33,240 nucleotides of DNA from Geminicoccaceae bacterium (GTDB lineage: Bacteria; Pseudomonadota; Alphaproteobacteria; Geminicoccales; Geminicoccaceae). Positions within the stretch are counted from its first letter, which is position 1. Each line of letters begins with the position of its first letter. The notes beneath the pieces were generated by a model. It worked only from the letters and a program-made list of their open reading frames with translations. It was not told the origin of the DNA and did not search any database. Shown piece by piece: positions 286-31,797 of this stretch. A program made the translations under genes and the position numbers. The stretch covers positions 1 to 33,240 of the forward strand of contig JAGREO010000039.1 in assembly GCA_020446525.1 (NCBI GenBank). Direction: 5' to 3'.

Positions 286-300
286 GATCGAAGTTCCGTC

Positions 301-1937: not shown

Positions 1938-2326
1938 TTTCTTGCCGCAAACCATTGAGATAAAAGAATGATTAGCGCCTATAACTCTCTAACAGACTCT
2001 TCTCTAACGTTCTAACGCCGAATCGCCACCTGCGACGACGGAGTTCGGCCCCCGATCGAGCCTCCATCGCAAGGCTCCAAGACGCTCGAAGCCGGGTGGA
2101 GTTTGCTTCGCACACATCATCGATGCGCCCGTGCAGAAGCAGGCTTGCAACGAGGTCGGAGAAGATCGGAGGCCGGTTCCCTTCGACCTCCGTCCCCGAC
2201 TCTTCGTCCTCATGGTGAAGAGGAAAACGGCATTGGGTTACGCAATCCGAGCGAAGCACGAGCCGTGTTAACCCATGAAAAGGACGAGAAGGCGACACTG
2301 AGGGCTCCTCGTCTCCTCTGATTCGT
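1938..2326 (+). other. low-GC stretch and non-coding leader before the glycosyltransferase gene
   Basis: No credible gene is seen. Bases 1938-2010 are clearly AT-richer than the rest of the window and abut the repeat array. A weak promoter-like pair, TTGAGA (1955-1960) and TATAAC (1980-1985), has a poor 19-base spacer. Downstream there are long-range complementary segments TGGGTTA (2234-2240) and TAACCCA (2269-2275), followed by GACGAG with CTCGTC, and then the intrinsic terminator at 2327. This could be a short non-coding transcript or an attenuated leader of the gene at 2392. Short frames here (for example 19 codons from ATG 2212) lack ribosome-binding sites. Confidence 0.35.
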
Positions 2327-2361
2327 GGCCGGCGACCCTTCTCGTCGCCGGCCATTTTTTT
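2327..2361 (+). terminator. intrinsic terminator upstream of the WecG-like gene
   Basis: A perfect 10-bp stem, GGCCGGCGAC (2327-2336) with GTCGCCGGCC (2344-2353), has a 7-base loop and is followed by A and seven T (2355-2361). It points along the plus strand and ends 30 bases before the start codon at 2392. No upstream plus-strand gene needs a terminator, so it ends either a small non-coding RNA or an attenuated leader. Confidence 0.85.
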
Positions 2362-2391
2362 CGGGCGGAGACATTCGGGAGGTCTTCGCCC

Positions 2392-3150
2392 ATGCAGTCC
2401 GTCAGGCTCTTCGGTCTGCCCTTGACCGCAACGACCCGTAGCGACGCCATCGTCGAGGCCGTGCGCGACGCCTGGGACACGAACCGCCCTCTCTCGATCA
2501 CCTTCGTCAATCCCCTCGCCTGGACGCTGGCGCGTCGCGACGAGGCTTATGTCGGCCTTCTGGACCGCATGGACATGGTCCTGCCCGACGGGATCGGTGT
2601 GGTCGCCGTCGCCCGCCGGCTGCTGCGCCAACCGCTCGAGCGCTTCAGCTTCGACGCCTCCTCGCTCTATCATCCGGTCATGGCCGAACTCGCCGACGGC
2701 AAGCATGGTCTGTTCGTCATCGGCGCCGCACCCGGTGTCGCCGAGCGCGCCTGTGGGCGTATCAGGGCGCGTTATCCGGAAATCCGCATCGTCGGGTGCC
2801 TCGACGGCTTCACGGGCGCCGAGGAGGCCCTGCAGCGCGTCCGGGAGGCACCTGCGGACATGGTCCTTTGCGGCATGGGGGCACCGCACCAGGAAAAGCT
2901 CCTGCTGGCGTTGCGCGAGGCGGGTTTTCGCGGCGTGGCCTTCACCTGCGGCGGCTTTCTCGATCAGTTGGCCCAGAGCGAGACCTATTACCCCGCCTGG
3001 ATCGACCATCTCGAGTTGCGCTGGCTCTGGCGCATCGTCAAGGAGCCGCGCCGCCTCTTCAGACGCTATGCGCTCGACTATCAGCCGTTCGTCCGGTTGA
3101 GCCTCGCGGCCCTGCTCACCGGACGCTCACGACACGGCGAACCGGCCTGA
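2392..3150 (+). CDS. WecG/TagA/CpsF-family glycosyltransferase
   Basis: A 252-residue protein of the GT26 (WecG/TagA/CpsF) family, whose members add a sugar to a lipid-linked glycan intermediate on the cytoplasmic face of the membrane. Recognisable elements are ITFVNPLAW near residue 40, the LPDGIGVV motif with the proposed catalytic aspartate near residue 64, the FVIGAAPGVAE nucleotide-binding loop, LCGMGAPHQEKLL, and the C-terminal WLWRIVKEPRRLFRRY stretch implicated in membrane association. Length is typical. GGGAGG lies 8 bases before ATG 2392. It stands alone, behind a terminator and with aroE convergent downstream. Exopolysaccharide or capsule assembly is likely, given the Wzc-like kinase further along, but the sugar cannot be told from sequence. 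Confidence 0.88.
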   Translation: MQSVRLFGLPLTATTRSDAIVEAVRDAWDTNRPLSITFVNPLAWTLARRDEAYVGLLDRMDMVLPDGIGVVAVARRLLRQPLERFSFDASSLYHPVMAELADGKHGLFVIGAAPGVAERACGRIRARYPEIRIVGCLDGFTGAEEALQRVREAPADMVLCGMGAPHQEKLLLALREAGFRGVAFTCGGFLDQLAQSETYYPAWIDHLELRWLWRIVKEPRRLFRRYALDYQPFVRLSLAALLTGRSRHGEPA

Positions 3151-3241
3151 GCGGAGGAGCACATCTTCGCGCCGTCGCTCCCGGTCTCGCCGCCCGTATA
3201 TCACCGGTTCCCCTCCGGCTTCGTGCGCCCGGCGTTGCGCA

Positions 3242-4120
3242 TCAGCCTCCGAGCCGCTCGAGCAGGAGTGCACGCGTCGCCTCGTCCACCGCAGGCTCGC
3301 TTCCGCCCCAATGACGAAAACCCGGCGCCGCCTGATGCAACAGCATGCCGAGACCGTCGACGGTGCGCAGACCGCGCAGCCGGGCAGCGCGCAGCAGCGG
3401 TGTCCAGAGCGGCACATAGACGAGATCGGCCACCACCGCGTCGGTGGGCAGCGCGTCCAGGGCCAGATCGAGCGGCGGCTGGCCGTTCATGCCCAGACTG
3501 GTGCCGTTGACTGCAAGCCCGGCGCCGCCCAGTGCCGCTTCACGATCCTCCCAGTCCACGACCTCGACCCGCGCGTCGCTCCAGGAGGCGAGTGCGGCGG
3601 CCAGCTCCTCGGCGTGCGCGCGCGTCCGGTTGATCAGCCGAACATGACCGATCCGCGCCTCGATCAGGCTGCAGGCGACGGCTCGCGCCGCGCCGCCGGT
3701 GCCGACGATCACCGCCGGCCGGCCACGACCCGTCCCGACGACGTCCCGCCAGCCGGGTGCCCGGCTTTCCAGATTGGCGAGAAAGCCGTAGCCGTCGGTG
3801 TTGCGGCCGAGCCTGCGGCCTTCGGCATCGATCAATACCGTGTTGACGGCACCCATCCGCTCGGCCGTTTCATCCGCTTCGTCGACCAGAGCGAAGGCGC
3901 GTTGCTTGTGCGGGATGGTGACGTTGACGCCGGCGAAGCCCAGCTTCGGCAGGGCGGCGAAAGCCTCTTCGAAATCCTCGGGCCGCACCGCCAGAGGTAC
4001 GTAGAACCCTGCGACCCCGGCCCGCGCGAACCAGTGCCCGTGCAGCACCGGTGAGAGCGAATGGCCGATCGGCCAGCCGATCACGCCCGCCAGCCGCGTT
4101 CCGCCGTCGATCCCTCTCAT
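3242..4120 (-). CDS. aroE: shikimate dehydrogenase
   Basis: A 292-residue NADP-dependent shikimate dehydrogenase, which reduces 3-dehydroshikimate to shikimate in the chorismate pathway in the cytoplasm. The N-terminal substrate domain has GWPIGHSLSPVLH, with the shikimate-binding SLS, and NVTIPHK with the catalytic lysine; the partner aspartate is in RNTDGYG. The nucleotide domain has VIVGTGGAARAV (GxGGxxxA) and LINRTRAHAEEL, where NRT is the usual NADP-phosphate contact. The start at 4120 overlaps the stop of the upstream lysE-like gene by ATGA, so translation is probably coupled. In many alphaproteobacteria aroE lies beside coaE and dnaQ; that arrangement is not present here. Confidence 0.95.
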   Translation of the reverse strand: MRGIDGGTRLAGVIGWPIGHSLSPVLHGHWFARAGVAGFYVPLAVRPEDFEEAFAALPKLGFAGVNVTIPHKQRAFALVDEADETAERMGAVNTVLIDAEGRRLGRNTDGYGFLANLESRAPGWRDVVGTGRGRPAVIVGTGGAARAVACSLIEARIGHVRLINRTRAHAEELAAALASWSDARVEVVDWEDREAALGGAGLAVNGTSLGMNGQPPLDLALDALPTDAVVADLVYVPLWTPLLRAARLRGLRTVDGLGMLLHQAAPGFRHWGGSEPAVDEATRALLLERLGG

Positions 4121-4728
4121 CGCTCGGCCAGGGCCAGCCTGGCACCCAGGGCCACGAACGCGGCGGCGAAGGAGCGACGCAGCCAGGCCAGGACGGACGG
4201 CCGCTCGATCACCTGCCGGCGTATCGTGGCCGCCGCCACGCCATAGCCGACGAAGACGACGAAAGTGAGACCCATGAAGACCGCGCTGAGCTCGAGCATG
4301 CGCAGCACCGGCGCGGTGGCTCGCGGATCGACGAATTGCGGCAGGAAGGCCAGAAAGAAGATCGAGAGCTTGGGGTTGAGCAGATTGACCAGGATCGCCG
4401 CCAGGATCGTCCGGCCCGTCGAGCGTGGCGCCCGCCTCTCGTCGATCTCCAGCGGCCCGCGCTCCTCGAGCACCGCCCAGGCCATGTAGAGCAGCCAGAC
4501 GACGCCGGCGATCTTGAAGATCTGGAAAGCGAGCGCGCTCACGTGCAGGAGTGCCGCCAGCCCGGTAACGGCAGCGACGATGTGCGGCACGATTCCGAGT
4601 GTGCAGCCCGCCGCGGCGACGAGGGCGGTACGGCTGCCGCCGGCCAGCCCGGCCGCGAGCGTGAACAGCACGCCGGTGCCCGGTGCGATCACCACGATCA
4701 GCGAGGTCAGAAGAAATTCGAGGCTCAA
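4117..4728 (-). CDS. LysE-family amino-acid/metabolite exporter
   Basis: A 203-residue inner-membrane protein with about six hydrophobic segments. Family marks are the N-terminal IVVIAPGTGVLFTLAAGLAG, the GVVWLLYMAWAVL helix and LVNLLNPKLSIFFLAFLPQF, the conserved NPK segment of LysE/RhtB translocators. These export amino acids or related small molecules. The start is TTG at 4728, supported by AGGGAGG five bases upstream; no better ATG lies near. It is the first gene of a two-gene minus-strand unit with aroE (4-base overlap) and diverges from creatinase. The substrate is unknown. Confidence 0.87.
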   Translation of the reverse strand: MSLEFLLTSLIVVIAPGTGVLFTLAAGLAGGSRTALVAAAGCTLGIVPHIVAAVTGLAALLHVSALAFQIFKIAGVVWLLYMAWAVLEERGPLEIDERRAPRSTGRTILAAILVNLLNPKLSIFFLAFLPQFVDPRATAPVLRMLELSAVFMGLTFVVFVGYGVAAATIRRQVIERPSVLAWLRRSFAAAFVALGARLALAER

Positions 4729-4854
4729 CGCGCCCTCCCTTCGTCCCGGTCTCGCCTCGCCACGAATTCGAGGCTAGAGGAGGTGCCGAACGAGCGCCAG
4801 CCGTTCTCGCCCGATACACACGAACTGGGTGCGCACGAACCTGGAGGAAAAGCC
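4729..4854. promoter_or_regulatory. divergent control region between lysE-like gene and creatinase
   Basis: These 126 bases must carry promoters in both directions. Ribosome-binding sites are clear at both ends: AGGGAGG for the minus gene and GGAGG (4843-4847) for the plus gene. No strong -35/-10 pair or operator is visible. The 11-mer AATTCGAGGCT occurs at 4715-4725 and again at 4765-4775. Confidence 0.4.
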
Positions 4855-6066
4855 GTGAAGAACATGCCGGACCTGATCGAGATCGAGAACGGAACGCCGG
4901 TCGAGGGCACTTTCTCGAAGGCCGAAATGGAAAGCCGGCTGACCAGACTGCGCCGGCTGATGGACGAGACGGGCGTCGGCGCCGTCCTCTTCACTTCCTA
5001 TCATAACATCGACTATTATGCCGATTTTCTCTATTGCTCGTTCGGACGCAAATACGGACTGGTCGTCACCCGAGACAGGCTCGTCTCGATCTCGGCCAAT
5101 ATAGACGGTGGTCAGCCTTGGCGACGGACCTTCGGCCACGACAACCTCGTCTATACCGACTGGCGACGGGACAATTATTTCCGGGCGGTGAAACAGCTCG
5201 TCGGTACGGCCGGGGTGGTCGGCATCGAGTACGATCATCTCGATCTGCAGACCATGAAGAAACTCGAAGATGCCCTGCCCTCGGTGCGCTTCGTCGACGT
5301 CTCTTCGGGCGTCATGCGCCTGCGGATGATCAAGTCGGCCGAGGAGATCACCCACATCACCGCCATGGCGGCGGTCGCCGACAAGGGCGGCGAGGCCTGC
5401 CGCGAGGCGATCGCGCCCGGCGTGCCCGAGCACGAGGTGGCGCTCGCCTCGACCGGCGCCATGGTGCGGGAGATCGCAAAGATATGGCCGCATGCCGAGC
5501 TGATGGACACGTGGACGTGGTTCCAGTCCGGCTCGAACACCGATGGTGCGCACAATCCGGTGACCTCGAGGCGGATCGAGGAAGGCGACATCTTGAGCCT
5601 CAACTGCTTTCCCATGGTCTCCGGCTATTACGTGGCGCTCGAGCGAACGCTGTTCTGCCGTCGTGCGAGCGATGCGCACCGGCGTCTTTGGGAGATCAAT
5701 TGTCGGGTGCACGACGAAGGCAAGAAGCTGCTGGTGCCCGGTGCCCGGTGCATGGACGTGGCGCACGCCCTGAACGAGATCTATGCCGAGCACGATCTGC
5801 TGCACCGCCGGACCTTCGGCTACGGCCACAGTTTCGGCGTGCTCTGCCACTATTACGGCCGTGAAGCCGGGCTCGAGCTCAGGGAGGACGTCGAGACCGT
5901 GCTCGAGCCCGGCATGGTGGTGTCGATGGAGCCGATGATCATGATCCCCGAGGGCGAACCCGGTGCCGGCGGCTACCGCGAGCACGACATCCTGGTGATC
6001 ACCGAGGACGGCAACACCAACATCACTCATTTCCCCTACGGCCCGGCGCACAACATCGTCGGTTGA
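4855..6066 (+). CDS. creatinase (creatine amidinohydrolase)
   Basis: A 403-residue protein, the same length as Pseudomonas creatinase, which hydrolyses creatine to sarcosine and urea. It belongs to the M24 pita-bread fold but is metal-independent. It keeps long near-identical segments: TSYHNIDYYADFLYCSFGR, ISANIDGGQPWRRT, LMDTWTWFQSGSNTDGAHNP (with the catalytic histidine, residue 233 here), RTFGYGHSFG, and SMEPMIMIPEGEPGAGGYRE. The start is GTG 4855, with GGAGG seven bases upstream; the in-frame ATG at 4864 is less well placed. No sarcosine oxidase or creatininase gene accompanies it in the window, so the rest of the pathway must be encoded elsewhere. Confidence 0.95.
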   Translation: MKNMPDLIEIENGTPVEGTFSKAEMESRLTRLRRLMDETGVGAVLFTSYHNIDYYADFLYCSFGRKYGLVVTRDRLVSISANIDGGQPWRRTFGHDNLVYTDWRRDNYFRAVKQLVGTAGVVGIEYDHLDLQTMKKLEDALPSVRFVDVSSGVMRLRMIKSAEEITHITAMAAVADKGGEACREAIAPGVPEHEVALASTGAMVREIAKIWPHAELMDTWTWFQSGSNTDGAHNPVTSRRIEEGDILSLNCFPMVSGYYVALERTLFCRRASDAHRRLWEINCRVHDEGKKLLVPGARCMDVAHALNEIYAEHDLLHRRTFGYGHSFGVLCHYYGREAGLELREDVETVLEPGMVVSMEPMIMIPEGEPGAGGYREHDILVITEDGNTNITHFPYGPAHNIVG

Positions 6067-6121
6067 GCCGGCGAACGAGCATGAAGCAACCCGGGATCGT
6101 TACGGAAACGCAAGCGCTCGC

Positions 6122-6643
6122 ATGAGTGGTCTTCTCGGCGAATGGGTCGATCACTTCTTTCGCCTCGCCTACAGGCTCGGTTACCCCCTCGCCCGGCGGT
6201 GGTGGCGCTGGACCGGCGGACGGGCGCAGGGTGCAGCCGTGGCGCTGCGGGTGAACGGAGCGCTCCTGGTGGTCCGGGAATCCTATCGCGACGGCCTCGG
6301 CCTGCCCGCCGGCGGGCGGGCGGCGGGCGAGAGCGCACGCGAGGCGGCCGTGCGCGAGCTGGCCGAGGAGGTCGGTGTGCGGTTGCGTGTCGAACAATTG
6401 ACCCTAGTGCGTGAGCGCACGTTCAGATGGCACGGCCGGCAGATCACCGACAGCCTGTTCGAGGCGGTGCTCGACGAACGGCCGGCGGTCGCGGTCGACC
6501 GGCGGGAGATCATCTGGGCCGGCTGGATGGCGCTCGCCGACATCCCCTCGAGCGACGCTCAGCCGACCCTGCGTTTCTATCTCTCGGAACGACGATCTCC
6601 GAGGGCCGATCGGAACGAGGCGCCGGTCTTAACCGGGCGGTAA
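6122..6643 (+). CDS. Nudix hydrolase
   Basis: A 173-residue protein with a perfect Nudix box (Gx5Ex7REUxEExGU) in GGRAAGESAREAAVRELAEE followed by VGV, near residues 62-84. Nudix enzymes hydrolyse nucleoside diphosphates linked to another moiety; the box binds the metal. The N-terminal 35 residues, basic and aromatic (HFFRLAYRLGYPLARRWWRW), precede the fold, an extension seen in NUDIX proteins sometimes described as membrane-associated. The substrate cannot be assigned. It lies 55 bases after creatinase on the same strand and may be cotranscribed. No good ribosome-binding site is seen before ATG 6122. Confidence 0.88.
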   Translation: MSGLLGEWVDHFFRLAYRLGYPLARRWWRWTGGRAQGAAVALRVNGALLVVRESYRDGLGLPAGGRAAGESAREAAVRELAEEVGVRLRVEQLTLVRERTFRWHGRQITDSLFEAVLDERPAVAVDRREIIWAGWMALADIPSSDAQPTLRFYLSERRSPRADRNEAPVLTGR

Positions 6644-6782
6644 GGTTCGAGCGCTAGAGTGACGATCGGATATTCGAGCGTGCCGCGCCCGTCCGATCGG
6701 TGGCCGCCCTCCCCTTGCCCCGAGTGCCGACGGCGAGCGCTGCGGACTCTCGATCCCCGCGGACCAGTGACGAGGAGTGGCG

Positions 6783-7673
6783 ATGCGTCTCGCCTATACG
6801 ATCAGCGGCTACAAGCAGCCGAGCCAGTTCCGCTGGCTGCTGGAGGCCGTCTGGCACGCGGACGATCTTTTCGCGGTGCACGTCGACGCACGCACGCCGG
6901 AGCCCGTGTTCCAGGCCTTCCAGAGAGTCGCGGCGGGTCGCTCCAACGTCTTTTTCGTCGCGCGCGAGCGGGTGGTCTGGATGGGGTCGGGCCTGCTGCG
7001 TGCGGAACTGCGAATGATCCGGCGGCTGTTGAGCGAGCCCGGCGGCTTCGATCACCTGATCGCGCTCTCCATGCAATGCTACCCCTTGAAGCGACGCGAA
7101 GCGATCGTGGCCGAGCTCGAACGTGAGCCGTGCCGGAACTTCATCCGTATGCTCGAGCTTCACGATCAGCCCTTCGAGGTGCGCCGGCGGCCCTATCTGA
7201 TGAGCTTCGAGCGGGCCGACAAGGTGCTGCGCACGCCCCTGCCCCGGCTGGTGCCGAAATCCACGCCGATCCGCTTCAAGGGCTCGTGGTGGCGCGTGCT
7301 GAGCCGGGATTTCTGCCGCTGGCTGGTCGACGATCCGATCACCGTGCGCTACGCGGCCTTCCTGGCGCACGTCCGTGCTCCCGACGAGCTGTTCTTTCAG
7401 AACCTGATCATGGCTTCGCCGTTCGCCGCCACCCTGGCGGACGATCACCGTCACGAGATCACCTGGACGGGCCGCGGCGGCAGCCCGGACACTGTGGGCA
7501 TGGCCGACCTGCCGCGGCTCGAGGCGTCGCCCATGTGGTTCACCCGCAAGGTCGACGAGATCGTCGACCGGCCGGTCCTCGAACGTCTCGCCGCCCGTAT
7601 CGGCGCCCCGGTTCCGCCGCCGGTCGGGATCGGGGACGACGAAGCCGGTTCGAGAGAGGTTGCCGCCGCATGA
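6783..7673 (+). CDS. GT14-like (core-2/I-branching) glycosyltransferase
   Basis: A 296-residue protein of the core-2/I-branching GlcNAc-transferase / xylosyltransferase-like family (GT14). Marks are the N-terminal LAYTISGYKQPSQFRWLL, HVDARTPEPV (where many members have HVDxK), a run near ALSMQCYPLK, the family-typical FKGSWWRVLSRDFCRWLV, and RAPDELFFQNLIMAS with the catalytic acidic pair. Bacterial members usually act in surface-polysaccharide synthesis. The start is ATG 6783, with GAGG seven bases upstream; GTG 6777 is possible. Its stop overlaps the next start as ATGA (7670-7673), so the two proteins are probably made together. Confidence 0.85.
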   Translation: MRLAYTISGYKQPSQFRWLLEAVWHADDLFAVHVDARTPEPVFQAFQRVAAGRSNVFFVARERVVWMGSGLLRAELRMIRRLLSEPGGFDHLIALSMQCYPLKRREAIVAELEREPCRNFIRMLELHDQPFEVRRRPYLMSFERADKVLRTPLPRLVPKSTPIRFKGSWWRVLSRDFCRWLVDDPITVRYAAFLAHVRAPDELFFQNLIMASPFAATLADDHRHEITWTGRGGSPDTVGMADLPRLEASPMWFTRKVDEIVDRPVLERLAARIGAPVPPPVGIGDDEAGSREVAAA

Positions 7674-9301
7674 GGGATTTCGCCCGGCTCACGATGCCCG
7701 CTCCGCCGTCCGCTGCAGCACCCTGCCCTGCTCCGCCTCGCTCGGTCGCGGCCACTGCGGTTTCCTCGAACAACGCCACGACCACCCTATCCGCGCCCGC
7801 CCTTTCAGGCCCGGCTGCACGGCTGCGCGGCCGGCTGCTGACCACCAGGCGGCTGGTCAAGAATCTGGAGGAAGAGAGCCGGGCTTTCGCCGGTGCCGCG
7901 CTGCGTCGCGTCGGCCTGGAGCGCCGGCATGCCCCGGCACCCCTGTTCGAGCCCGTACCCTTCGACGTCCGGCCGTTCCCGCACCGTGCCGGCGATCGGA
8001 TCGAAGGCTCCGACGATGCCGAGGAGCTCCGGGCGATCGTCGCCACACCGGCCGGCGACGCCTGCATGCACACCTTTTTCGACGTCTGCCCGATCAGCCC
8101 CTCCGGTCGCTATCTCGCCGTCACCCGCCTGCCCTTCGAGCATCGCGGACCCTGGCCCGGCGACATGGCGGAGGTCTGCCTCGTCGATCTGTGCGCCTGG
8201 ACCATCCAGGCGGTATACCGTACCTCGGGCTGGGCGCTGCAGCTCGGTGCCAATCTGCAATGGCATCCGACGTCGGATATTCTCTACACCAACGATCTGA
8301 AGGTCGAACCTCGCGGATATCGGGGCGTCGGCGTGGCGATCGATCCGGCCGACCGCTCGTGCCGTCGCTACGACGCGCCCTTTTATGCCGTCGATCCGTC
8401 CGGCCGGTTCATGCTGGGGCCGGCGCTGGACCTGGTCAACCGCACGCAATACGGCTACGGAGTGCCCGAGGGCCTGTTCGGTCGCCGCCGGCTGGCGCGT
8501 GGTGCCGCCGGCGACGAGGGCATCTGGCGCACCGATCTGGAGAGCGGCCGGGTCGAGCTCCTGGCGAGCATCGCCGACCTGGTCGATGCTTCGCCGGCGC
8601 GCGCGTTGCTGCGCAGCGGCGTCAACTATCTCTTTCACACCAAGATCGCACCCTGCGGCGGGCGGCTTTTTCAGGTCCTGCGCTCGATCGATCTGGCCGA
8701 TCGTCCGGGTGCCGTGCGCAGCCGCATCATGACCTTGGACACCGACGGCGGGCATGTGCGCGAGGCCCTGCCGCACGAAGCCTGGGACCGTGGCGGCCAC
8801 CATCCGAGCTGGCTGGCCGACGGCGACATCCTGATGAATCTGGTTCCGGATTCGGTCCCTGAGACGGCAGCCGAGGGGATGCGGTTCGTCCGCATCGCGC
8901 AGGACGGTTCCGGATCGCCCGAGCCGATCGGTCCCTGGCGCGGCAGCGGTCATCCGAGTGTCGACCCGACCGGCCGCTTTCTCGTCACCGACGCCTATCT
9001 CAACGAAGGCTTCGGGGCGCCGGACGGGCGCGCGCCGCTCAGGCTGATCGACCTCGCCGGTGGCCGGGAACGGCACGTCCTGCAGCTCGACTGCGGCCCG
9101 CCGAACCTGCGCGCCCGCCGGGTCGACCCGCATCCCGTCTGGGGCCGCGACGGCCGGTCGCTGATCCTCAACACGGTGATCGACGGGCGTCGCCAGGTGG
9201 TGATCGCCGATCTCGGCGACCGGATCGATCGGCCGCCGGGCGAGCGACCGACCGATCCGCCCTCACCCGCGACGCCGGGAGTCTCATCCGACGTCGGATG
9301 A
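7670..9301 (+). CDS. predicted TolB/WD40-like beta-propeller protein, function unknown
   Basis: A 543-residue protein without a recognised enzyme family. After a low-complexity N-terminus (Ala/Pro/Ser to about residue 50) and a basic helix, it contains blade-like repeats: PISPSGRYLAVTRLP, LQWHPTSDILYTND, AVDPSGRFMLGP, HHPSWLADGDILMN, GHPSVDPTGRFLVTDAY and HPVWGRDGRSLILNT. The pattern hP.(W/S)..DGr.L is that of TolB and WD40-like beta-propellers. There is no convincing signal peptide. It is coupled by ATGA overlap to the GT14-like enzyme, suggesting a joint role in glycan synthesis or recognition. Two copies of the parS-like palindrome lie inside it, at 8265 (encoding HPTSDI) and at its 3' end (9286, encoding SSDVG). 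The start at ATG 7670 is set by the coupling. Confidence 0.7.
   Translation: MRDFARLTMPAPPSAAAPCPAPPRSVAATAVSSNNATTTLSAPALSGPAARLRGRLLTTRRLVKNLEEESRAFAGAALRRVGLERRHAPAPLFEPVPFDVRPFPHRAGDRIEGSDDAEELRAIVATPAGDACMHTFFDVCPISPSGRYLAVTRLPFEHRGPWPGDMAEVCLVDLCAWTIQAVYRTSGWALQLGANLQWHPTSDILYTNDLKVEPRGYRGVGVAIDPADRSCRRYDAPFYAVDPSGRFMLGPALDLVNRTQYGYGVPEGLFGRRRLARGAAGDEGIWRTDLESGRVELLASIADLVDASPARALLRSGVNYLFHTKIAPCGGRLFQVLRSIDLADRPGAVRSRIMTLDTDGGHVREALPHEAWDRGGHHPSWLADGDILMNLVPDSVPETAAEGMRFVRIAQDGSGSPEPIGPWRGSGHPSVDPTGRFLVTDAYLNEGFGAPDGRAPLRLIDLAGGRERHVLQLDCGPPNLRARRVDPHPVWGRDGRSLILNTVIDGRRQVVIADLGDRIDRPPGERPTDPPSPATPGVSSDVG
8265..8278. promoter_or_regulatory. parS-like palindrome, copy 1
   Basis: ATCCGACGTCGGAT, a perfect 14-bp palindrome, inside the propeller gene. 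It is 1.4 kb from parA and the leftmost perfect copy. Confidence 0.75.
9286..9299. promoter_or_regulatory. parS-like palindrome, copy 2
   Basis: ATCCGACGTCGGAT, extended to the 16-bp palindrome CATCCGACGTCGGATG (9285-9300). It overlaps the last codons of the propeller gene and adjoins its TGA stop. Confidence 0.82.
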
Positions 9302-9410
9302 CCCGGTGCGGATCCTCGTCGCCGATTGATCCCGAGCAGCACGATATCCTGCCCCGAAAGGACACCGGCACGAGTTGGACTTCGAGACAGGTTGCGGTTT
9401 GGGCGGAAAT

Positions 9411-9424
9411 ATCCGACGTCGGAT
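9411..9424. promoter_or_regulatory. parS-like palindrome, copy 3
   Basis: A perfect ATCCGACGTCGGAT in the gap before parA. Confidence 0.85.
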
Positions 9425-9454
9425 GTTCGCGCGCCCGGCTGCCCTCGTCGTCAT

Positions 9455-9468
9455 ATCCGACATCGAAC
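9455..9468. promoter_or_regulatory. degenerate parS-like site
   Basis: ATCCGACATCGAAC matches the palindrome at 11 of 14 positions, with the left half intact. It lies between perfect copies 3 and 4 and may be a weak site or a decayed copy. Confidence 0.4.
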
Positions 9469-9520
9469 GAACAATGACGCCGGTGTCGATCGATACGATG
9501 TCACGCAGCGCTCGCGCGAC

Positions 9521-9534
9521 ATCCGACGTCGGAT
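9521..9534. promoter_or_regulatory. parS-like palindrome, copy 4
   Basis: A perfect copy, extended to the 16-bp palindrome CATCCGACGTCGGATG (9520-9535). Confidence 0.85.
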
Positions 9535-9577
9535 GCGCCCATGGCCGGGCGGCGGCCGGCGGGTACGTGTGCCGGAT

Positions 9578-9591
9578 ATCCGACGTCGGAT
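9578..9591. promoter_or_regulatory. parS-like palindrome, copy 5
   Basis: A perfect copy, 76 bases before the parA start and 57 bases after copy 4. It is well placed to act as an operator. Confidence 0.85.
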
Positions 9592-9667
9592 GTCGCGCGA
9601 CGATCGTCAGTCGGCTGTTGCATCCGCGTCCTATCACGTGGGCGCCCGGCGGGCCTATGTGGAGACC

Positions 9668-10507
9668 ATGACGCTCATCATCGCGGTCGCCAACCAGAAA
9701 GGCGGGGTCGGCAAGACCACCACCGTCGTCAATCTCGCCCAGGCATCGGCGGCGCACGGACTGCGGGTGCTGATGATCGACGCCGATCCGCAGGCCAGCC
9801 TGACCATCTATGCCGGCGCCGACCCCAGGGCGCTCGAGGCCGAGGGTCGGACCATCCATCACTGGCTGCTCGAAGATCGGACACCGGACGAGGTGATCGT
9901 GCCGACCGGGACGGGCGGGGCGGACCTCTTGCCCTCGAGCATCCGGTTCGCCTCCGCCGAGAGTGAGCTTCTTTCCGCCTGGAACGGCGCCAGCCTGCTG
10001 CGGGAACGCATGGGCAGCCTCGTCGAGCAGGCGGGAAGCGGCGATCGGCGGCGGCGCTACGACCTCGTGCTGATCGACTGCTGCCCGTCGCTGGGCCTGC
10101 TGACCGTCAACGCGCTCGCCGCCGCACACCAAGTGCTGGTGCCGGTCAAGACCGACTATCTCTCCTTGATGGGTGTGTCGTTGCTGCTCGAGACGGTCGA
10201 ACGGGTGCGGGCCCGCCTCAATCCCGGCCTGGAGATCATGGGCGTGTTGCCGACCATGTACGACCGGCGCAACGCCCACGATCGCGAAGCGCTCGACGAA
10301 CTGATCGAGCTTCTCGGCGAGCGGCAGCGCGTCTTCACGCCGATCGGCCGATCGACGGTGTTCGATCAGGCTTCGGTCGAAGGTGTCGCGACGCTGATCA
10401 GCCGTCCGGAGCACAAGGCCCTCGACGGCTATCGCGAGATCGTGGCGCGGCTCACCCGACGAACGGCCGGCGAGCGTCGCGAGGAGGTGACGATCGATGG
10501 GCGCTGA
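9668..10507 (+). CDS. parA: ParA-family partition ATPase
   Basis: A 279-residue ATPase of the ParA/Soj type, which forms ATP-dependent gradients on the nucleoid and moves ParB-parS complexes apart. The deviant Walker A is KGGVGKTT (residues 11-18, with the signature lysine 11), Walker A' is LMIDADPQAS and Walker B is LVLIDCCPSLGLLTVNAL, in which the usual DxPP is DCCP. It lacks an N-terminal DNA-binding domain, so it is of the short Soj-like class rather than the P1 type. GGAG lies five bases before ATG 9668. It overlaps parB by 11 bases. Confidence 0.95.
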   Translation: MTLIIAVANQKGGVGKTTTVVNLAQASAAHGLRVLMIDADPQASLTIYAGADPRALEAEGRTIHHWLLEDRTPDEVIVPTGTGGADLLPSSIRFASAESELLSAWNGASLLRERMGSLVEQAGSGDRRRRYDLVLIDCCPSLGLLTVNALAAAHQVLVPVKTDYLSLMGVSLLLETVERVRARLNPGLEIMGVLPTMYDRRNAHDREALDELIELLGERQRVFTPIGRSTVFDQASVEGVATLISRPEHKALDGYREIVARLTRRTAGERREEVTIDGR

Positions 10508-11420
10508 AGCCGCCGACGAAGACACGATCGGACCGCGGCAGCGAACGGCACGGGCTTCCGCGGAGCGGAAGCCCGTGGCGGGCAAGGGCAGGGGACGGCC
10601 ATCGCTCAAGGATCGCATGGCTCGTGACAGCTTCTTTCAGACCTCGGCCGACCTGCCGCGCGTCGTCGAGATCGACCTCGACCGGCTGACGGCCAACCCC
10701 GAGCAGCCGCGGACCCGCTTCGACGCGGCGGCGATCGACGATCTGGCCGCGTCCATCGAGCGGCACGGCCTGCTGCAGCCGGTGATCGTCCGCACCTCGG
10801 GCGAGGGCTCTTATGTGCTGATCGCTGGCGAGCGGCGCATGCGCGCCTGTCGCAAGCTCGGACGCAAGACCATTGCGGCCATTCTCACCGACGGCGACGC
10901 CGGCGAGATCGCCCTGATCGAGAATCTGCAGCGCGAGAATCTCGACCCGTTCGACGAGGCCGCCGCCGTCGCCCGGCTGATGGCCGAGCGCGGTTACAGC
11001 CAGAACGAGATCGGCAAGATCATCGGCAAGCGGCAGAACACCGTGAGCGCGCTGCTGTCGCTGACCACCTTGCCCGAGCGGATCCGCCGCGAATATCCGA
11101 CGTCGGATCGGGTGTCGAAAAGCTGGCTGATCGAGCTTGCCCAGGTCCAGGGCGAGCGGGAGCAACTGCGTCTCTGGGACCGGGCGAAGAGCGCGCCCGT
11201 CACCGTCCGCGAGATCCGCGGCGCCCGCGGCACGACCGATGCGGCCTCCACCGGCGACGACGTCGTCGTGACCGCCCGCATGGCGCGTCGTCTGCTCGAC
11301 CGGCTGAGCCGGCTGCCGGCACAGGGTCTCGACGCCGACGACCGGATCCGGGCCGACCTTCTCCGTCTCCATCGCGAACTCGGCTCGAAGCTCGGCCTGA
11401 AGACACCCGACGACACATGA
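10497..11420 (+). CDS. parB: ParB-family centromere-binding protein
   Basis: A 307-residue ParB/Spo0J protein. After a basic N-terminus (about 55 residues) comes the ParB N-domain, VVEIDLDRLTANPEQPRTRF, then SIERHGLLQPVIVR, and the CTP-binding GERRMRACRKLG and ENLQREN boxes. The helix-turn-helix is YSQNEIGKIIGKRQNTVSAL, followed by LSLTTLPERIR. Its recognition helix (KRQNTVSALL) differs from that of the common chromosomal Spo0J, matching the non-standard palindromes nearby. The C-terminal part should dimerise. GAGGAGG precedes ATG 10497, within the end of parA. A parS-like palindrome lies within the gene at 11095. Confidence 0.94.
   Translation: MGAEAADEDTIGPRQRTARASAERKPVAGKGRGRPSLKDRMARDSFFQTSADLPRVVEIDLDRLTANPEQPRTRFDAAAIDDLAASIERHGLLQPVIVRTSGEGSYVLIAGERRMRACRKLGRKTIAAILTDGDAGEIALIENLQRENLDPFDEAAAVARLMAERGYSQNEIGKIIGKRQNTVSALLSLTTLPERIRREYPTSDRVSKSWLIELAQVQGEREQLRLWDRAKSAPVTVREIRGARGTTDAASTGDDVVVTARMARRLLDRLSRLPAQGLDADDRIRADLLRLHRELGSKLGLKTPDDT
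11095..11108. promoter_or_regulatory. parS-like palindrome, copy 6, inside parB
   Basis: A perfect ATCCGACGTCGGAT within parB. It encodes part of EYPTSDRV just after the helix-turn-helix. Confidence 0.75.
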
Positions 11421-11801: not shown

Positions 11802-14024
11802 ATGCTGAACGACGTCGTATCGGCGATCGCGCATCCACCGGTGCCGCAACATCGGCGCCCCCGGAAGATCGCCTGTCTCTTCTTCGGGGCCCTGCTGCTG
11901 GCCGGCCTCGCGCTCGTGACGACCACACAGCCGCAGTGGTCGGCCGCTCCCGCGACGGGGGAGGGGGGGCTGCCGGCGTTCGTCGTGTTCGGACCCTCGC
12001 TTTCGATCCCCTGGTTCGACTTGCGGGAAGAAGACGGGCCGACGACCGGTCTCTTGGGCCTCTCGGTGCTGGTCACGCTCGCCGCCTCGTTGTGGGCCCT
12101 GCGTCGTAAGCGTGCTTCAAAACGACGGGAGAACGCCCTGGATCGTGCACGCGCGGCACATCGGCGGCTCGAGACGGCGCTCGAGGCATCGACCGACGCC
12201 ATCGCCCTGTTCGATGCCGACGAGCGGCTGGTGACGTGCAACGCCCGCTACCGCGCTCTCTACGCCTCGTCGGCCGACATCCTGCGGCCCGGCATCCGCT
12301 TCGAGGACCTGCTGCGGCACGGCGTGGCGCAGGGCGGCCACGATCCGGACGATCGTCCGGCGGAGGCGATCGCCGCGGAGGTGCTGGCCGCCTTCCGTCG
12401 GGCCGACGGCCGGGAGATCGAGCGGCGGCTGGCCGACGGCCGGCTGGTGTGCTGTAGCGAGACACGGCTCGAGGACGGCGGTCTGATCGGTGTGTATCGC
12501 GACGTCGGCGAGCTCAGGGCTCGTGAGCGGGCCCTTCTCGCCAGCCAGCGGCGTTACGAGCGGTTGGCCCGTCGCGATCCGTTGACCGGGCTCGGCAATC
12601 GGGCGTGTTTTCTGGAGACCCTGAACGGCCTGCTGGCCGAGGCCGATCGGGCCGCGGGTCCGGGCGGCGAGCGTCACACCATCGTTCTTCTGGCCGATAT
12701 CGACCGGTTCAAGGAGATCAACGAGACCTTCGGACATCAGGTCGGTGATCTGGTGCTGCAGGCGGCGGCCGAGCGGCTGGTGTCGATCGTTCCCGATGGA
12801 GGCAGCGTCGCGCGGGTCGGCACCGACGAATTCGCGCTTTTGGTGCCCCTGATCGCGGAAAAGGGGGCCGGGAGCGACGCGGCGAAGGAGAAGGCGTCGG
12901 CCTTGGCCGAGCAGGTGCTCGCCTCGTTCCGTCACCAGATCGTCCTCGATCGCCAGCGGCTGATCGTCCGGGTGACCCTGGGTCTGGCCATCCATCCCGA
13001 TCACGCGACGACCGGCTCGGATCTCCTGCGGCTGGCCGATCTTGCGCTCTGCCGCGCCAAGCAGATCGATCGCGGGGGTCACGTGATCTGCGACCCGGCC
13101 ATCCTCGCCATGCGTGCCCGTCGCCGCACCGTCGAACGCTCCTTGCGACGGGCACTCGCCGGCGGCGAGCTCGACCTGGCGGTGCAGCCCAAGCTGTCCC
13201 TGGCGCGCCAGCGGATCGTCGGGGTCGAGATGCTGCTGCGCTGGTACGATCCGGTGGCCCGTGAGAACATGCCGCCCGGCGAGTTCATCCCGGTCGCCGA
13301 AAGCAGTGCGATGATCCTCGACATCGATCGCTGGGTGCTGGCGGAGGGCTGCCGGCGGGCGGTCGTCTGGAAGACCGAGCACGATCTCGATCTGCAGGTC
13401 AGCATCAATCTGTCCGGTGCCCACTTCAGGCGGCCGGAGCTGCCCGATCTGGTCGCCCGCACCCTGGACGAGACGGGTCTCGAACCGCGCCTTCTGGAAA
13501 TCGAGATGACCGAGGGCGTGCTCGTCCAGGACCGCAAGATGAGCGAATACATCATTCGTCAGTTGCACGATCTGGGCGTGTGCATCGCGTTGGACGATTT
13601 CGGCACCGGCTATTCGAGTCTCGCTTATCTGCGCGACCTGCCGCTCGACCGGCTCAAGATCGACCGTTCCTTCGTCATGGATCTGGAAACCAATCCGCGC
13701 AACCGGGCGATCGTCAAGACCTTCATCGGCCTGGGTCACGAGCTCGGCATGACCATCGTCGCCGAAGGGGTCGAGACCGACGGCCAGTTGCGCCTGCTCG
13801 AGGCGCTCGGCTGCGACGACGTGCAGGGCTATCTGCTCACCCGGCCGATGCCCCAGGCGGCCTTGCTGCCGTGGCTCGAAGCCGGCCGCTGGAAGACGAT
13901 CACCGCCGGTGCGGACCACGATGGAGAGAGCGTGCCCGATCGAGCGGCCGTCGCCACGCGACCGCATCGGGGCCTCGTCGATCTCGGCGCGGCACATCCT
14001 GCCGGCCCGCCTTACTCCCCGTAA
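11802..14024 (+). CDS. membrane-bound PAS-GGDEF-EAL cyclic-di-GMP protein
   Basis: A 740-residue protein. Two membrane segments (about residues 23-43 and 83-103) flank a short periplasmic loop; then come a PAS-like sensor (TALEASTDAIALFDADERLV), a GGDEF domain (RRDPLTGLGNRACF, ADIDRFKEINETFGHQVGD) and an EAL domain. The GGDEF signature is VGTDEF (GTDEF, residues 340-344), so cyclase activity may be weakened or lost. In the EAL domain the signature is EML (E476), but the other metal and catalytic residues are visible: INLSGAHF, IEMTEG, LDDFGTGYSS, LKIDRSF and VAEGVET. Phosphodiesterase activity is therefore likely. ATG 11802 is preferred over GTG 11754; neither has a strong ribosome-binding site. 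It follows parB by 381 bases. Confidence 0.9.
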   Translation: MLNDVVSAIAHPPVPQHRRPRKIACLFFGALLLAGLALVTTTQPQWSAAPATGEGGLPAFVVFGPSLSIPWFDLREEDGPTTGLLGLSVLVTLAASLWALRRKRASKRRENALDRARAAHRRLETALEASTDAIALFDADERLVTCNARYRALYASSADILRPGIRFEDLLRHGVAQGGHDPDDRPAEAIAAEVLAAFRRADGREIERRLADGRLVCCSETRLEDGGLIGVYRDVGELRARERALLASQRRYERLARRDPLTGLGNRACFLETLNGLLAEADRAAGPGGERHTIVLLADIDRFKEINETFGHQVGDLVLQAAAERLVSIVPDGGSVARVGTDEFALLVPLIAEKGAGSDAAKEKASALAEQVLASFRHQIVLDRQRLIVRVTLGLAIHPDHATTGSDLLRLADLALCRAKQIDRGGHVICDPAILAMRARRRTVERSLRRALAGGELDLAVQPKLSLARQRIVGVEMLLRWYDPVARENMPPGEFIPVAESSAMILDIDRWVLAEGCRRAVVWKTEHDLDLQVSINLSGAHFRRPELPDLVARTLDETGLEPRLLEIEMTEGVLVQDRKMSEYIIRQLHDLGVCIALDDFGTGYSSLAYLRDLPLDRLKIDRSFVMDLETNPRNRAIVKTFIGLGHELGMTIVAEGVETDGQLRLLEALGCDDVQGYLLTRPMPQAALLPWLEAGRWKTITAGADHDGESVPDRAAVATRPHRGLVDLGAAHPAGPPYSP

Positions 14025-28335: not shown

Positions 28336-28875
28336 TCAGCAGTCGGAGGCGCCGATCAGGCCGATCGCCGTGCAGCCGCCCTCGGTCGAGACCGACTGGC
28401 GGATGGTGGTGGTCTGGGTCAGGCTGCCGCCGACGTCGGCACCGTTGATCTTGCCGATCTCGGTGGCGCCGCCCTTGCCCAGGCCCAGGAACCCGCCGGA
28501 CTTGTGGCTGACGTCGGCCAGCACCGTGGTCGTCTGGCGCAACTGGCCGCCGACCTTGGTGTTCTTGATCGAGCCGACCTCGAGCGTGCCGCCCTCGTTG
28601 GTCAGGTTGCGGCGCACGAAGGTGGTCTGCACCGCCTGGCCGCCGACGTCGATGTTCTCGATGTTGCCGACATTGGTCGTCGACTTGGCACCGAGCCCGC
28701 CGAAACCGCCGCTCTCGACGCTGACATTGCCGTTGACCGTGGTGCGCTGGGTCAGCGTGCCGCCGACCTTGACCCCGCCCGAAGCCGCCTGGGCGTGGAC
28801 CTCGCCGGCGGCCATCAGCGCCAGGGCGGCGACCGAAGCGGTGGCGAAAGACTTGAAGCTGGTGACCTTGCGCAT
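28336..28875 (-). CDS. small secreted internal-repeat protein, function unknown
   Basis: A 179-residue protein with a clear signal peptide (MRKVTSFKSF, then hydrophobic ATASVAALALMAAG, cleavage near VHAQA). The rest is four repeats that alternate long and short. Each opens with VGG, a Q-x-T-T-x strand and a V/L-x-x-x strand, then either SGGFxGLG plus a spacer (repeats 1 and 3) or a bare EGG (repeats 2 and 4), and closes with the xVGxI turn. Examples are VGGTLTQRTTV, VGGQAVQTTFV, VGGQLRQTTTV and VGGSLTQTTTI. The pattern suggests a beta-solenoid or amyloid-like surface fibre, but no named family is recognised. Only the C-terminal repeat has cysteines (GGCTAIG, SDC). GAGGAG lies eight bases before ATG 28875. 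Confidence 0.8.
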   Translation of the reverse strand: MRKVTSFKSFATASVAALALMAAGEVHAQAASGGVKVGGTLTQRTTVNGNVSVESGGFGGLGAKSTTNVGNIENIDVGGQAVQTTFVRRNLTNEGGTLEVGSIKNTKVGGQLRQTTTVLADVSHKSGGFLGLGKGGATEIGKINGADVGGSLTQTTTIRQSVSTEGGCTAIGLIGASDC

Positions 28876-29188
28876 CTGACGTCTCCTCGTCGGGTTGTCG
28901 ATGAGCGGACCCTAACCGCGGATCGACCAACCGGAGGTGACACGCATCACCCGCTCCCCACTACCTGTGATCCACGACACAGGGCCGGTTCGTAGCGCAG
29001 CGGACGAATTTCGACCATCGCGACCCATGCCGGGTGGCCGTATGGATCGTTAATATTTCGAGAATTTTTGGCATATTTAAGTGTTCATTAACAACAACTC
29101 GTAGAGCAAAATAACTCGTTTCGATCGATACGCACGGTATCCCCGCCAGGCCTTTCGGCACTGTCGTGAATTCGTTCACCGGTCGAAG
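28876..29188. other. low-GC divergent control region
   Basis: No gene is supported in 313 bases. Bases 29040-29130 are markedly AT-rich for this genome (TTAATATTT, GGCATATTTAAG, CATTAACAACAACT) and probably carry the promoter of the three-gene unit at 29189, though no consensus -10 is placed well. CCTGTG (28964-28969) with CACAGG (28978-28983), and GTGAA-TTCG-TTCAC (29166-29179), form small hairpins; the latter sits just before the start codon. Confidence 0.4.
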
Positions 29189-30775
29189 ATGGAAATACAC
29201 ATGGACTGCATTTCGCAGGCGCGTCGGCGCAAGATCGGCCAGAAGCTCTATGTGGTCGCTTGGGTCATCGAAGGCATCGCGGTATCTGCGGGACTGCTGA
29301 TCGCCGTGGCGATCGGTATGGACGCCCATCATGCGGCCGGCGGCCATGGGCTCTCCTTGGACGTCGTTCTCGCCTCCGGCGGCTTTTTGGTCGTCGCCTG
29401 CGCCGAGCTGACCAAGATACCCGTGGCGACGACGCTGGTGCATGCTCGCTGGACGTGGAAGCCGGTGCTGTTCGTCCTTCTCGCCTTGATGAGCGTGATC
29501 ACCTTCGAGACCATTTTCTTCAGTCTCGAGCGCGGCTTCACCATGCGCATGCAGGCGGTCGAGCGACAGAGACAGGCCGTCGAAGAGCTGGAAGATGAAC
29601 GATCGAGACTCATGACGGATCTCGCCCGTTCCAAGGAGGCCGCCACGGATACGCAGGTGCTGCTCGTCGGCCCGGCGGACGAACTGCGCCGACGGACCGC
29701 CGAACGCGTCGAGGAATTGAAGGCCGAGCTCGCGACCCTGGATCTGAACGCCCTTCCTCCTGCGGCGCTCGATCTCGATCGACGCATCGCCGAACGCCGC
29801 CAGGCCATCGGCGATCTGCGCGATCTCGCGAAGACGGAACGCAACGAGCGCATCGACCGCTTCGAAAGCCAGCGCGAGAGCTACCTGCGTCGCATCGAGG
29901 ATGCGCGCAAGGCCGGGGACGAGCGGTCCGTGCGCAAATGGGAGCAAGCCCTGGAAAAGCTGCCCTATCCGAAAAAGGAGCTCGACGAGATCCAGAAGCG
30001 GCACGGCGTGGAAATCTCCAAGGTCGAGGCGCAGATCGTCGAGCTTCGTCAACAGCGCGCAGCGCTGGACATCACGCCATCGGCCGATCTCGTCGCACGC
30101 CGGCGGAGTCTGCAGGAAAGGATCGACGAAGCTTATGACGACCAGCGCGCGCTCGAGCGAGAGCAGGGAGCACGAGCCGCCGAGCGCAGCGAAAAGGCTG
30201 CCGCCCGTCTCGACGCGGTTGCCCTCACCGAAGAACGCCTGCGTGTGGTCGAGAAAAATCTGGTGCCCGCGCGCGCGGCCTACCTCGAACTGTCCGAGCT
30301 CGATCAGATTTATCGTATCGCCGCCTTCTGGTTCGGCAAAGCGCCGGCCGAGATCGGCTCGCACGAGGCCAAGCAGGTGGCGGCCTTCTGGTTCGGCTCG
30401 ATCGCGGCGCTCGCAGCTTTGGCCGGTGCCGCCACCGCCATTCTCGGTGAAGGGTTGATCCGTCTGAGCGAGCCGCGGCCGCGCCAGCGACGTGCCATGG
30501 GCCTGGCGGGCCTGCTCCGCCGCCTGCTGCTCTCCTGGCGCTGGCAGCGGGTGCGCACCGTCGAGCGCATCGTCGAAGGGCCGCCGGTCGAGAAGGTCGT
30601 GGAGAAGATCGTCGACAAGATCGTCGAACGACCGGTCAAGGAGTTCATCTACGTCCCGCTTCTCACCGACGATCCCGACGCCGTGCGCAGCATCCTCGAG
30701 CGCGATCTGCCTCGAGGTGTCGGCGAGATCCTGAAGCCATCCGCTTGGGGAGACGGCCATGCAGTGCCGGCATGA
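29189..30775 (+). CDS. large membrane coiled-coil protein, function unknown
   Basis: A 528-residue protein I do not recognise. The N-terminus has three membrane helices (about residues 20-43, 57-77 and 91-112). A long charged, heptad-like coiled coil follows (about 115-375), interrupted near PPAALDLDRR and LPYPKKELDE. A fourth helix lies near 403-428 (VAAFWFGSIAALAALAGAAT). After a basic stretch comes a valine/glutamate repeat (PVEKVVEKIVDKIVERPV), leading into KEFIYVPLLTDDPDAVRSIL. ATG 29189 is the first start; ATG 29201, with GGAAA before it, is equally possible. The next gene starts 17 bases inside its end, so the two are coupled. The layout suggests a membrane scaffold spanning a distance, but this is inference. 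Confidence 0.72.
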   Translation: MEIHMDCISQARRRKIGQKLYVVAWVIEGIAVSAGLLIAVAIGMDAHHAAGGHGLSLDVVLASGGFLVVACAELTKIPVATTLVHARWTWKPVLFVLLALMSVITFETIFFSLERGFTMRMQAVERQRQAVEELEDERSRLMTDLARSKEAATDTQVLLVGPADELRRRTAERVEELKAELATLDLNALPPAALDLDRRIAERRQAIGDLRDLAKTERNERIDRFESQRESYLRRIEDARKAGDERSVRKWEQALEKLPYPKKELDEIQKRHGVEISKVEAQIVELRQQRAALDITPSADLVARRRSLQERIDEAYDDQRALEREQGARAAERSEKAAARLDAVALTEERLRVVEKNLVPARAAYLELSELDQIYRIAAFWFGKAPAEIGSHEAKQVAAFWFGSIAALAALAGAATAILGEGLIRLSEPRPRQRRAMGLAGLLRRLLLSWRWQRVRTVERIVEGPPVEKVVEKIVDKIVERPVKEFIYVPLLTDDPDAVRSILERDLPRGVGEILKPSAWGDGHAVPA

Positions 30776-31364
30776 CACCTCGTTGCTCTACAAGGCCGCG
30801 GAGATCGTCAACGACCGCACCGCCATCCCCTCCCGCAAGGCCGACGCGGCCGCCTATCGCATCCGCCGGCTCGCCGACGCCCGTGGTCTGCTGGCGGCCG
30901 GTGTCGCCATCGCCATCGCCGCTCTGGGTATCGGCATCGGCATGAGCTTCGCCTGGCCTCCGACCGTTGCGAAGAGTGTGTCGGACACCGGTGTCCGCGC
31001 GGGCTTGCGCCGTCTCGAGCGCGAGTACGGCGCGAGCAGCGAAATCACTCCATCGAAAGCGACGACCAACTACGCCGTCTTCAAGGCGATCGAGGTCCAA
31101 CACTTCGCCCGTACGTGGAGGATTCAGGCGGGCCATCATTTCGATACGAGCGAAGACCCGATTTGGGCACGTGCGTGGTGTTACACGAGCGTTCTGCGCG
31201 ATGGCGTCGTCATTCGACTCGATCTCGCCGATCGGAAATCCGCGACAGCGTCGGCATGGACGTCGCCGACCACACCGCAAATGCTGCAGGTTCTCGACCT
31301 GACCAACCGGCAGGTAGCGGAGCTGGCGCGCGATTGTCCGTGGCTGGAATCCGACATGCTCTGA
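30759..31364 (+). CDS. single-pass membrane protein, function unknown
   Basis: A 201-residue protein with a cytoplasmic N-terminus of about 45 residues, one membrane helix (LLAAGVAIAIAALGIGIGMS, about 44-63) and an outside domain with YAVFKAIEVQ, WRIQAGHHFD, WARAWCYTSVLRDGVVIRLD and LARDCPW. No family is recognised. The start at ATG 30759 overlaps the previous gene by 17 bases and follows GGGGAG (30747-30752), so it is well supported. Two cysteines in the outside part may form a disulfide. It is the second gene of the three-gene unit. Confidence 0.68.
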   Translation: MQCRHDTSLLYKAAEIVNDRTAIPSRKADAAAYRIRRLADARGLLAAGVAIAIAALGIGIGMSFAWPPTVAKSVSDTGVRAGLRRLEREYGASSEITPSKATTNYAVFKAIEVQHFARTWRIQAGHHFDTSEDPIWARAWCYTSVLRDGVVIRLDLADRKSATASAWTSPTTPQMLQVLDLTNRQVAELARDCPWLESDML

Positions 31365-31452
31365 GATCCGGCGCGAAATCCGTCATCTTTCCCGCCTCGA
31401 CCGGCTTCTCACGATCCCGAATCGAATCAGCCCCGCAAAGGACCAGACGGCC

Positions 31453-31797
31453 ATGTCTCTTCGCAGCTCGTCGTCGTTGTCGCTCGCTTTGCTCTTCACC
31501 CTCGCGGCGGCCGGCCCCGCTGCCGCCGTGCGCATGCGGAGCCATGGAAGCCTGAACGAGTGCATCGTGACCTGGGGTTCGTTCTGCCCGGTCGAATCGT
31601 TCGGCTTGAGCCTGCTCGCGACGGCAGGCCTCACGGCACTGGCGTTCGCCGTCTGGTTCGTCGCCAGCAAGCTCTGCGACGGCGCACGGAAGGCGGGCCA
31701 CGGAGGCATCGCCGCCATCTTCGCGCTCGCCGCCCGCTACCCAATTTTCGCCTTCGGCGCAGTCGTTCTCGCCATTGCCGCACTTTTCGACAAGTGA
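31453..31797 (+). CDS. small exported membrane protein, function unknown
   Basis: A 114-residue protein with a signal-peptide-like N-terminus (SLALLFTLAAAGPAAAV, cleavage near AAA), a short loop with two cysteines (NECIVTWGSFCP) and two hydrophobic segments (about residues 52-71 and 84-110). No family is recognised. It lies 88 bases after the previous gene on the same strand and is the last of the unit. ATG 31453 is preceded by AAGGA about 11 bases upstream. An inverted repeat (31883-31910) lies about 85 bases beyond the stop. Confidence 0.62.
   Translation: MSLRSSSSLSLALLFTLAAAGPAAAVRMRSHGSLNECIVTWGSFCPVESFGLSLLATAGLTALAFAVWFVASKLCDGARKAGHGGIAAIFALAARYPIFAFGAVVLAIAALFDK

Follow-up and report, generated by a model that had tools for sequence, protein, structure and literature searches.

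A conserved, overlapping pair of membrane protein genes without a named family, sporadic in the Alphaproteobacteria and possibly acting at the cell envelope

The described systems that resemble the genes analysed here include the following two. In ZorAB of the Zorya system, a multi-TM and a single-pass protein are encoded by adjacent genes, with acidic residues in the membrane helices and defence genes in the neighbourhood. Proteins with the DUF4407 domain (PF14362), as judged by inspection of those from L061-L064, consist of three TM helices, a coiled coil, one further TM helix and a cytoplasmic tail. Both sets of features are shared by a pair of overlapping genes, ORF1 and ORF2, in the window studied, which is the whole of a 33,240-base contig (C172) from an alphaproteobacterial assembly of 379 contigs and 86.8% completeness. 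No description of this pair was found in open-access papers of PMC or in PADLOC 2023, and it is new as to family, profile and fold insofar as no match of these kinds was found.

The original prediction for this locus, made from the sequence alone, was of a module of three membrane protein genes. All three ORFs were found at the coordinates then given, with the features ascribed to them (Table 1): hydropathy and a structural model recover the four hydrophobic helices, long coiled coil and VEK-type repeat of ORF1, ORF2 has a single TM helix and overlaps ORF1 as described, and ORF3 begins with a signal-like segment and contains two hydrophobic helices. The AT-rich stretch preceding ORF1 is likewise present and is a probable promoter area; no sigma-70 consensus site was found in it, the promoter and terminator scan being uninformative. 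Chance ORFs can be excluded for ORF1 and ORF2, which have relatives at 28-47% and 33-45% identity respectively, and the existence of these homologues, together with the low dN/dS of the Microvirga copies of ORF1 and ORF2 and a 53% identical homologue of ORF3 in another genome, indicates that the three ORFs are real. The true start of ORF1 may be Met5, at 29201, where its relatives begin. An antisense ORF of 605 aa (28961-30778, minus) was rejected as spurious.

Table 1. Coordinates and features of the three-ORF locus in the window
Feature	Position	Strand	Basis or remark
AT-rich upstream region, probable promoter area	29040..29120	.	GC 0.31 vs 0.68 window-wide
ORF1, 528 aa membrane protein: N-in, TM1-3, coiled coil (predicted periplasmic), TM4, cytoplasmic tail	29189..30775	+	homologues, dN/dS, model
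TM1-TM3, about residues 22-40, 54-80, 93-111; invariant E28, E73, K/R76, E107	29252..29521	+	hydropathy, residue table
Coiled coil, about 285 residues (112-396), predicted periplasmic	29522..30376	+	hydropathy, model; only generic coiled-coil structure matches
TM4, about residues 397-415; invariant W401-F402, G413	30377..30433	+	hydropathy, residue table
Cytoplasmic VEK repeat and conserved terminal motif KEFIYVPLLTDDPDA (residues 484-498)	30560..30682	+	only in homologues with ORF2 downstream
ORF1/ORF2 overlap, 17 nt, ORF2 ATG inside ORF1 end	30759..30775	+	same overlap size in 11/13 loci
ORF2, 201 aa: conserved cytosolic N-terminus, one TM, predicted periplasmic domain	30759..31364	+	homologues, model
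ORF2 TM helix, residues 44-62, rich in glycine and alanine, no charged residue	30888..30944	+	alignment, hydropathy
ORF2 predicted periplasmic domain, residues 102-195: four strands, two helices, invariant C141, C193	31062..31343	+	pLDDT about 90, invariant columns
ORF3, 114 aa	31453..31797	+	starts 88 bp after ORF2

None of the three proteins had been assigned to a family, and this assessment stands: scans with Pfam, NCBIfam, PHROGs and PADLOC gave nothing above chance for ORF1, ORF2 or ORF3. The best PADLOC 2023 match was to the coiled coil of ORF1 (E 0.069), with none for ORF2 or ORF3, and a match to an inward-rectifier K channel (E 0.054) was set aside as chance. Structure searches with ORF1 retrieved only generic coiled coils (SMC, chemoreceptors, p85 iSH2), and a search of PDB sequences likewise returned coiled coils only. 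For ORF2, the best fold match had a Z of 5.0, which is not meaningful, and none was found among PDB sequences.

The coupling of ORF1 and ORF2, from which a complex had been judged likely, is borne out by their relatives. In all 13 close alphaproteobacterial loci, ORF1 is followed directly, in the same orientation, by a homologue of ORF2; the two form an operon whose overlap measures 17 nt at 11 loci, 26 nt in M. ciceri and 32 nt in Devosia. Conservation of gene order between genomes had been named as a check; the order is kept for the pair, but the flanking genes differ between loci and ORF3 is not among them. The pairwise identities of ORF1 and ORF2 rise together (r = 0.97, a value dominated by the Microvirga group and equalled in none of 2000 permutations). 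Between Microvirga copies, dN/dS is 0.06-0.08 for ORF1 and 0.09-0.12 for ORF2; by this measure purifying selection on the pair is strong. Searched with ORF2, the plasmid collection yields just the two records obtained with ORF1, in which members of the pair are labelled 'hypothetical protein' or 'PAN domain-containing protein'.

Genome G008, from the same family as the window, holds a relative of ORF1 at 46% identity. Microvirga contributes six further loci, M. zambiensis accounting for two of these, and others come from Mesorhizobium ciceri, Bauldia, a Devosia MAG and two more Rhizobiales assemblies, with more distant ones in G269, G179 and G667 and, outside the class, in G963 and G1057, which from their gene content appear gammaproteobacteria-like. 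A single-sequence scan of genome contigs was empty; relatives came from an alignment-based scan. Within the window's family, the ORF1 profile also gave weak matches in the coil region, which were discounted as coiled-coil noise. On the M. ciceri plasmid (L005) the ORF1 homologue (11950-13676) is split into overlapping frames, 12010-12531 and 12492-13676, by a frameshift, sequencing error or decay, and the pair there adjoins a divergent gene of about 31.5 kb encoding an Ig-like repeat protein (1-10794).

The pair is sporadic across the Alphaproteobacteria as sampled here, being present in 2 of 31 genomes of the window's family, in 3 of 385 of the class (the window itself included) and, as clear cases, in 2 of 397 genomes of a Microvirga-centred sample; it is also carried by large plasmids. 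The GC3 of ORF1 and ORF2, at 0.79, is slightly below that of the neighbouring genes measured (0.80-0.95). No relative was detected in 50,697 phage records or, by a pattern scan of IMG/VR, in viral contigs, and PHROGs gave nothing above chance.

Across 14 homologues of ORF1, E28, E73, K/R76 and W401-F402 are present in all and E107 in 13, and the invariant or near-invariant positions lie in the membrane helices rather than the coil. TM1 has A24, E28 and G35, TM2 has E73 and K/R76 near its inner end, TM3 has F106 and E107, and TM4 has W401-F402 and G413. That charged and aromatic residues are the most conserved, and within the membrane, points to a helix bundle that may transmit or conduct something. 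The approximately 285 residues between TM3 and TM4 are almost wholly helical in the AlphaFold2 model, which has a mean pLDDT of 79.5, with most of the coil at 80-95; in several distant members the coil extends to 326-430 residues. Positively charged residues (K/R-rich segments) are concentrated in the N-terminus, the TM2-TM3 loop and the tail. Taken with the four TM helices, the positive-inside rule hence places both ends of ORF1 inside and the coil outside, so that the coil is probably periplasmic.

Beyond TM4, a basic stretch and VEK-type repeats lead into KE-x-x-Y-[VI]-P-x-LTDDP, which is present in all close relatives aligned. ORF1 had been pictured as a scaffold whose KEFIYVPLLTDDPD tail is a docking end; the tail is indeed real, conserved and found together with the partner gene, but scaffold is an incomplete description of a protein in which conservation is highest in the membrane helices. 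The wider form of the tail, [KR]E-x-x-[YH]-[VI]-P, and an adjacent ORF2 homologue are both present at 15 loci and both absent from 3, without exception. The 15 include the distant G269 and G667, in which a weak but significant ORF2 homologue follows ORF1 (E about 1e-5, four-protein search). The tail-less homologues of G179, G963 and G1057 have no ORF2 gene downstream, G963 being judged on about 500 bases only. The tree does not fully separate tail-bearing from tail-less homologues, so that shared ancestry alone may be insufficient to account for the link between tail and partner, although with its long branches the tree falls short of proof. Since ORF1 homologues with neither tail nor ORF2 occur in one alphaproteobacterium and in two genomes outside the class (L054 8388-9914, L055 7543-9036), the membrane part would seem to have some function by itself.

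In ORF2, the N-terminus (M..RH.T..L...A....IP...A.A.A) and the TM helix are strongly conserved, and a variable linker separates the latter from the C-terminal domain, in which W120, G125-H126, W136, W140-C141-Y142, C193 and W195 are invariant; C141 and C193 would fit a periplasmic disulphide. What lies beyond this shared core, itself without a known family in the searches above, varies. The window copy ends there and that of G008 has a short extension, whereas Microvirga, M. ciceri and others have PAN domains fused at the C-terminus (PF00024/PF14295 above cut-off in L004, L005, L011, L013 and L015; PF00024 in L010), and a ClpP-like domain with a conserved CLSAC serine and GVHR histidine is present in L007, L011, L013 and L015 (best match to a solved ClpP, E 8.7e-5). 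The Pfam scan detected no PAN domain in the window ORF2, which also lacks the ClpP fold with its conserved Ser and His, and is a minimal version without these fused parts. Exchangeable outer heads on a constant core suggest that the core may report on, or act on, something at the cell envelope.

The surroundings of the pair were compared at 13 loci (L004, L005, L007, L009, L010, L013, L015, L016, G269, G179, G667, G008 and the window); loci on very short contigs, and the two solo homologues from outside the class, did not enter the comparison. A defence gene lies within 10 kb in 6 of the 13, a count for which the neighbour proteins were partly hand-picked and L004, G179, G008 and the window were judged by annotation or reading only. 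CBASS is found near the M. ciceri locus, PDC-S11 near L007, PDC-S02 about 450 bp upstream of L009, which also has PDC-S37, a type IIG restriction-methyltransferase near L015, McrBC in G269 and AbiU/AIPR in G667. As controls, 20 windows of 16 kb elsewhere in G442, G440, G446, G441, G179 and G667, on the contigs of the test loci, were searched with the same library at E 1e-15; regulators and housekeeping ATPases made up most of the matches, and one or two genes (PDC-S48, ATPase-Toprim) might serve in defence. For this small set of loci, the p value by Fisher's test is 0.008 if one control window is counted, 0.026 if two and 0.06 if three. Mobile genes of all kinds gather in islands, and such islands tend to hold defence genes. 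The copies in the window and in G008 stand among ordinary chromosomal genes for envelope, transport and sugar functions, not among defence genes.

The explanation proposed, to which a probability of roughly 0.45 is attached, is that ORF1 and ORF2 constitute a two-subunit accessory inner-membrane complex that reads envelope events, plausibly as part of an anti-phage response. Its components are not equally firm. That the two proteins form a membrane complex is predicted with high confidence, while for a sensing or effector function at the envelope the odds are about even, and a defence role is less likely than not. On strong grounds, the periplasm is the predicted location of both the ORF1 coil and the ORF2 C-terminal domain, and the two cytosolic parts, the ORF1 tail and the ORF2 N-terminus, are predicted to work together. 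It appears, with moderate strength, that the complex senses a periplasmic or cell-surface event and switches the ORF1 membrane bundle in response. In such a mechanism, ORF2 with a PAN head (glycan or protein binding) or ClpP-like head (proteolysis) would read the event, the ORF1 stalk would relay it into a change of the bundle, and the Glu/Lys/Glu residues would provide an ion pathway or conformational relay. On the cytoplasmic side, no nuclease, toxin, hydrolase or other effector domain was seen.

On weak to moderate grounds, namely a patchy distribution, partial carriage by plasmids and enrichment near known defence genes, the complex might protect against incoming DNA, with phage adsorption or entry as the probable stage of action. 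The fullest form of this proposal is rather doubtful. It envisages a new two-protein anti-phage system of the Alphaproteobacteria in which the periplasmic stalk and an exchangeable PAN or ClpP-like head would sense phage entry at the envelope, the charged four-helix module would open or switch in response, and the conserved YVPxLTDDP tail would signal to the cytosol.

The principal rival, itself somewhat unlikely, is an accessory envelope-organising or surface-polymer complex (a scaffold, polarity factor or cell-wall link) with no role in defence, in which the ORF1 stalk would position ORF2 and the fused PAN and ClpP-like domains would bind or trim envelope components. A periplasmic coiled coil and the domains fused in relatives would suit such a complex, as would the position of the pair beside the giant Ig-like repeat gene of M. 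ciceri and the envelope, transport and sugar genes around the window and G008 copies, but it accounts poorly for the very patchy distribution, the lack of conserved flanking genes and the enrichment near defence genes, and a scaffold needs no invariant membrane charges. It is improbable that ORF1 is a distant branch of DUF4407: helix order is the same and, on inspection, acidic residues lie near similar membrane positions, yet the window ORF1 does not match the DUF4407 profile at E 1, only 1 of 14 homologues touches it, scoring 14.9 bits where the cut-off is 31.3, and in the coiled coil alone, and hhalign gives no alignment of the two families, DUF4407 being represented by only five sequences. 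Still less credible is a defence motor driven by ions, of the MotAB/ExbBD/ZorAB type; a multi-TM protein with a single-pass partner, buried acidic residues and a defence neighbourhood would be expected of one, but no ZorA, ZorB, MotA or ExbB-type subunit was matched in PADLOC, Pfam or NCBIfam, and ORF2 has neither an acidic residue in its TM helix nor a Pfam match to a peptidoglycan-binding domain; the long domain, moreover, is predicted to lie on the opposite side of the membrane from the ZorA tail. Least tenable is a three-gene unit of ORF1, ORF2 and ORF3: although ORF3 is a real gene on the same strand just downstream, it is absent beside every other copy of the pair, and its sole homologue found (L060 363-752, minus), next to a sensor-kinase gene, belongs to a genome (G020) from which ORF1 is absent, so that ORF3 is not part of a conserved unit and only the pair survives from the module as originally drawn.

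ORF3 is a real, independent family of small membrane proteins with a conserved TWG-x-FCPVE motif. Elsewhere in the window, a parA-parB pair is accompanied by five copies of the 14-bp palindrome ATCCGACGTCGGAT (at 9286, 9411, 9521, 9578 and 11095, within 9286-11420), an arrangement like parABS and possibly the mark of a secondary replicon, and nine direct copies of a TTCGGTACATCGTTCAC-like sequence at 1494-1939, the last ones at 22-24 nt spacing, resemble replication iterons or an operator array. An exported 179-aa protein with repeated VGGTLTQRTTV-like units and no Pfam family match is encoded divergently from ORF1 (28336-28875, minus), and a DUF1127-domain protein (E 3.2e-9) is encoded close to the contig end (32074-32682, minus).

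If the preferred reading of ORF1 and ORF2 as an envelope-reading complex is correct, it would describe a sporadic, hitherto unnamed membrane complex with exchangeable periplasmic heads, and would give bacterial immunity a sensor that faces the periplasm, or else represent a transmembrane signalling unit of a new type; its mechanism could be tested with few mutants, given the strict tail-partner link and the invariance of E28, E73, K/R76 and E107. PDC-S02, PDC-S11, CBASS, McrBC and AbiU share neighbourhoods with the pair and are not homologous to it, and PAN/Apple-domain and ClpP-like proteins are related to it only through the heads of some ORF2 relatives. DUF4407 proteins resemble ORF1 in architecture; in sequence and profile, no similarity was found outside the coiled coil. 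ZorAB, without homology to the pair in PADLOC, resembles it in gene arrangement and intramembrane acids, but where ZorA has its tail in the cytoplasm (PMC11890865), the long domain of the pair is predicted to project into the periplasm.
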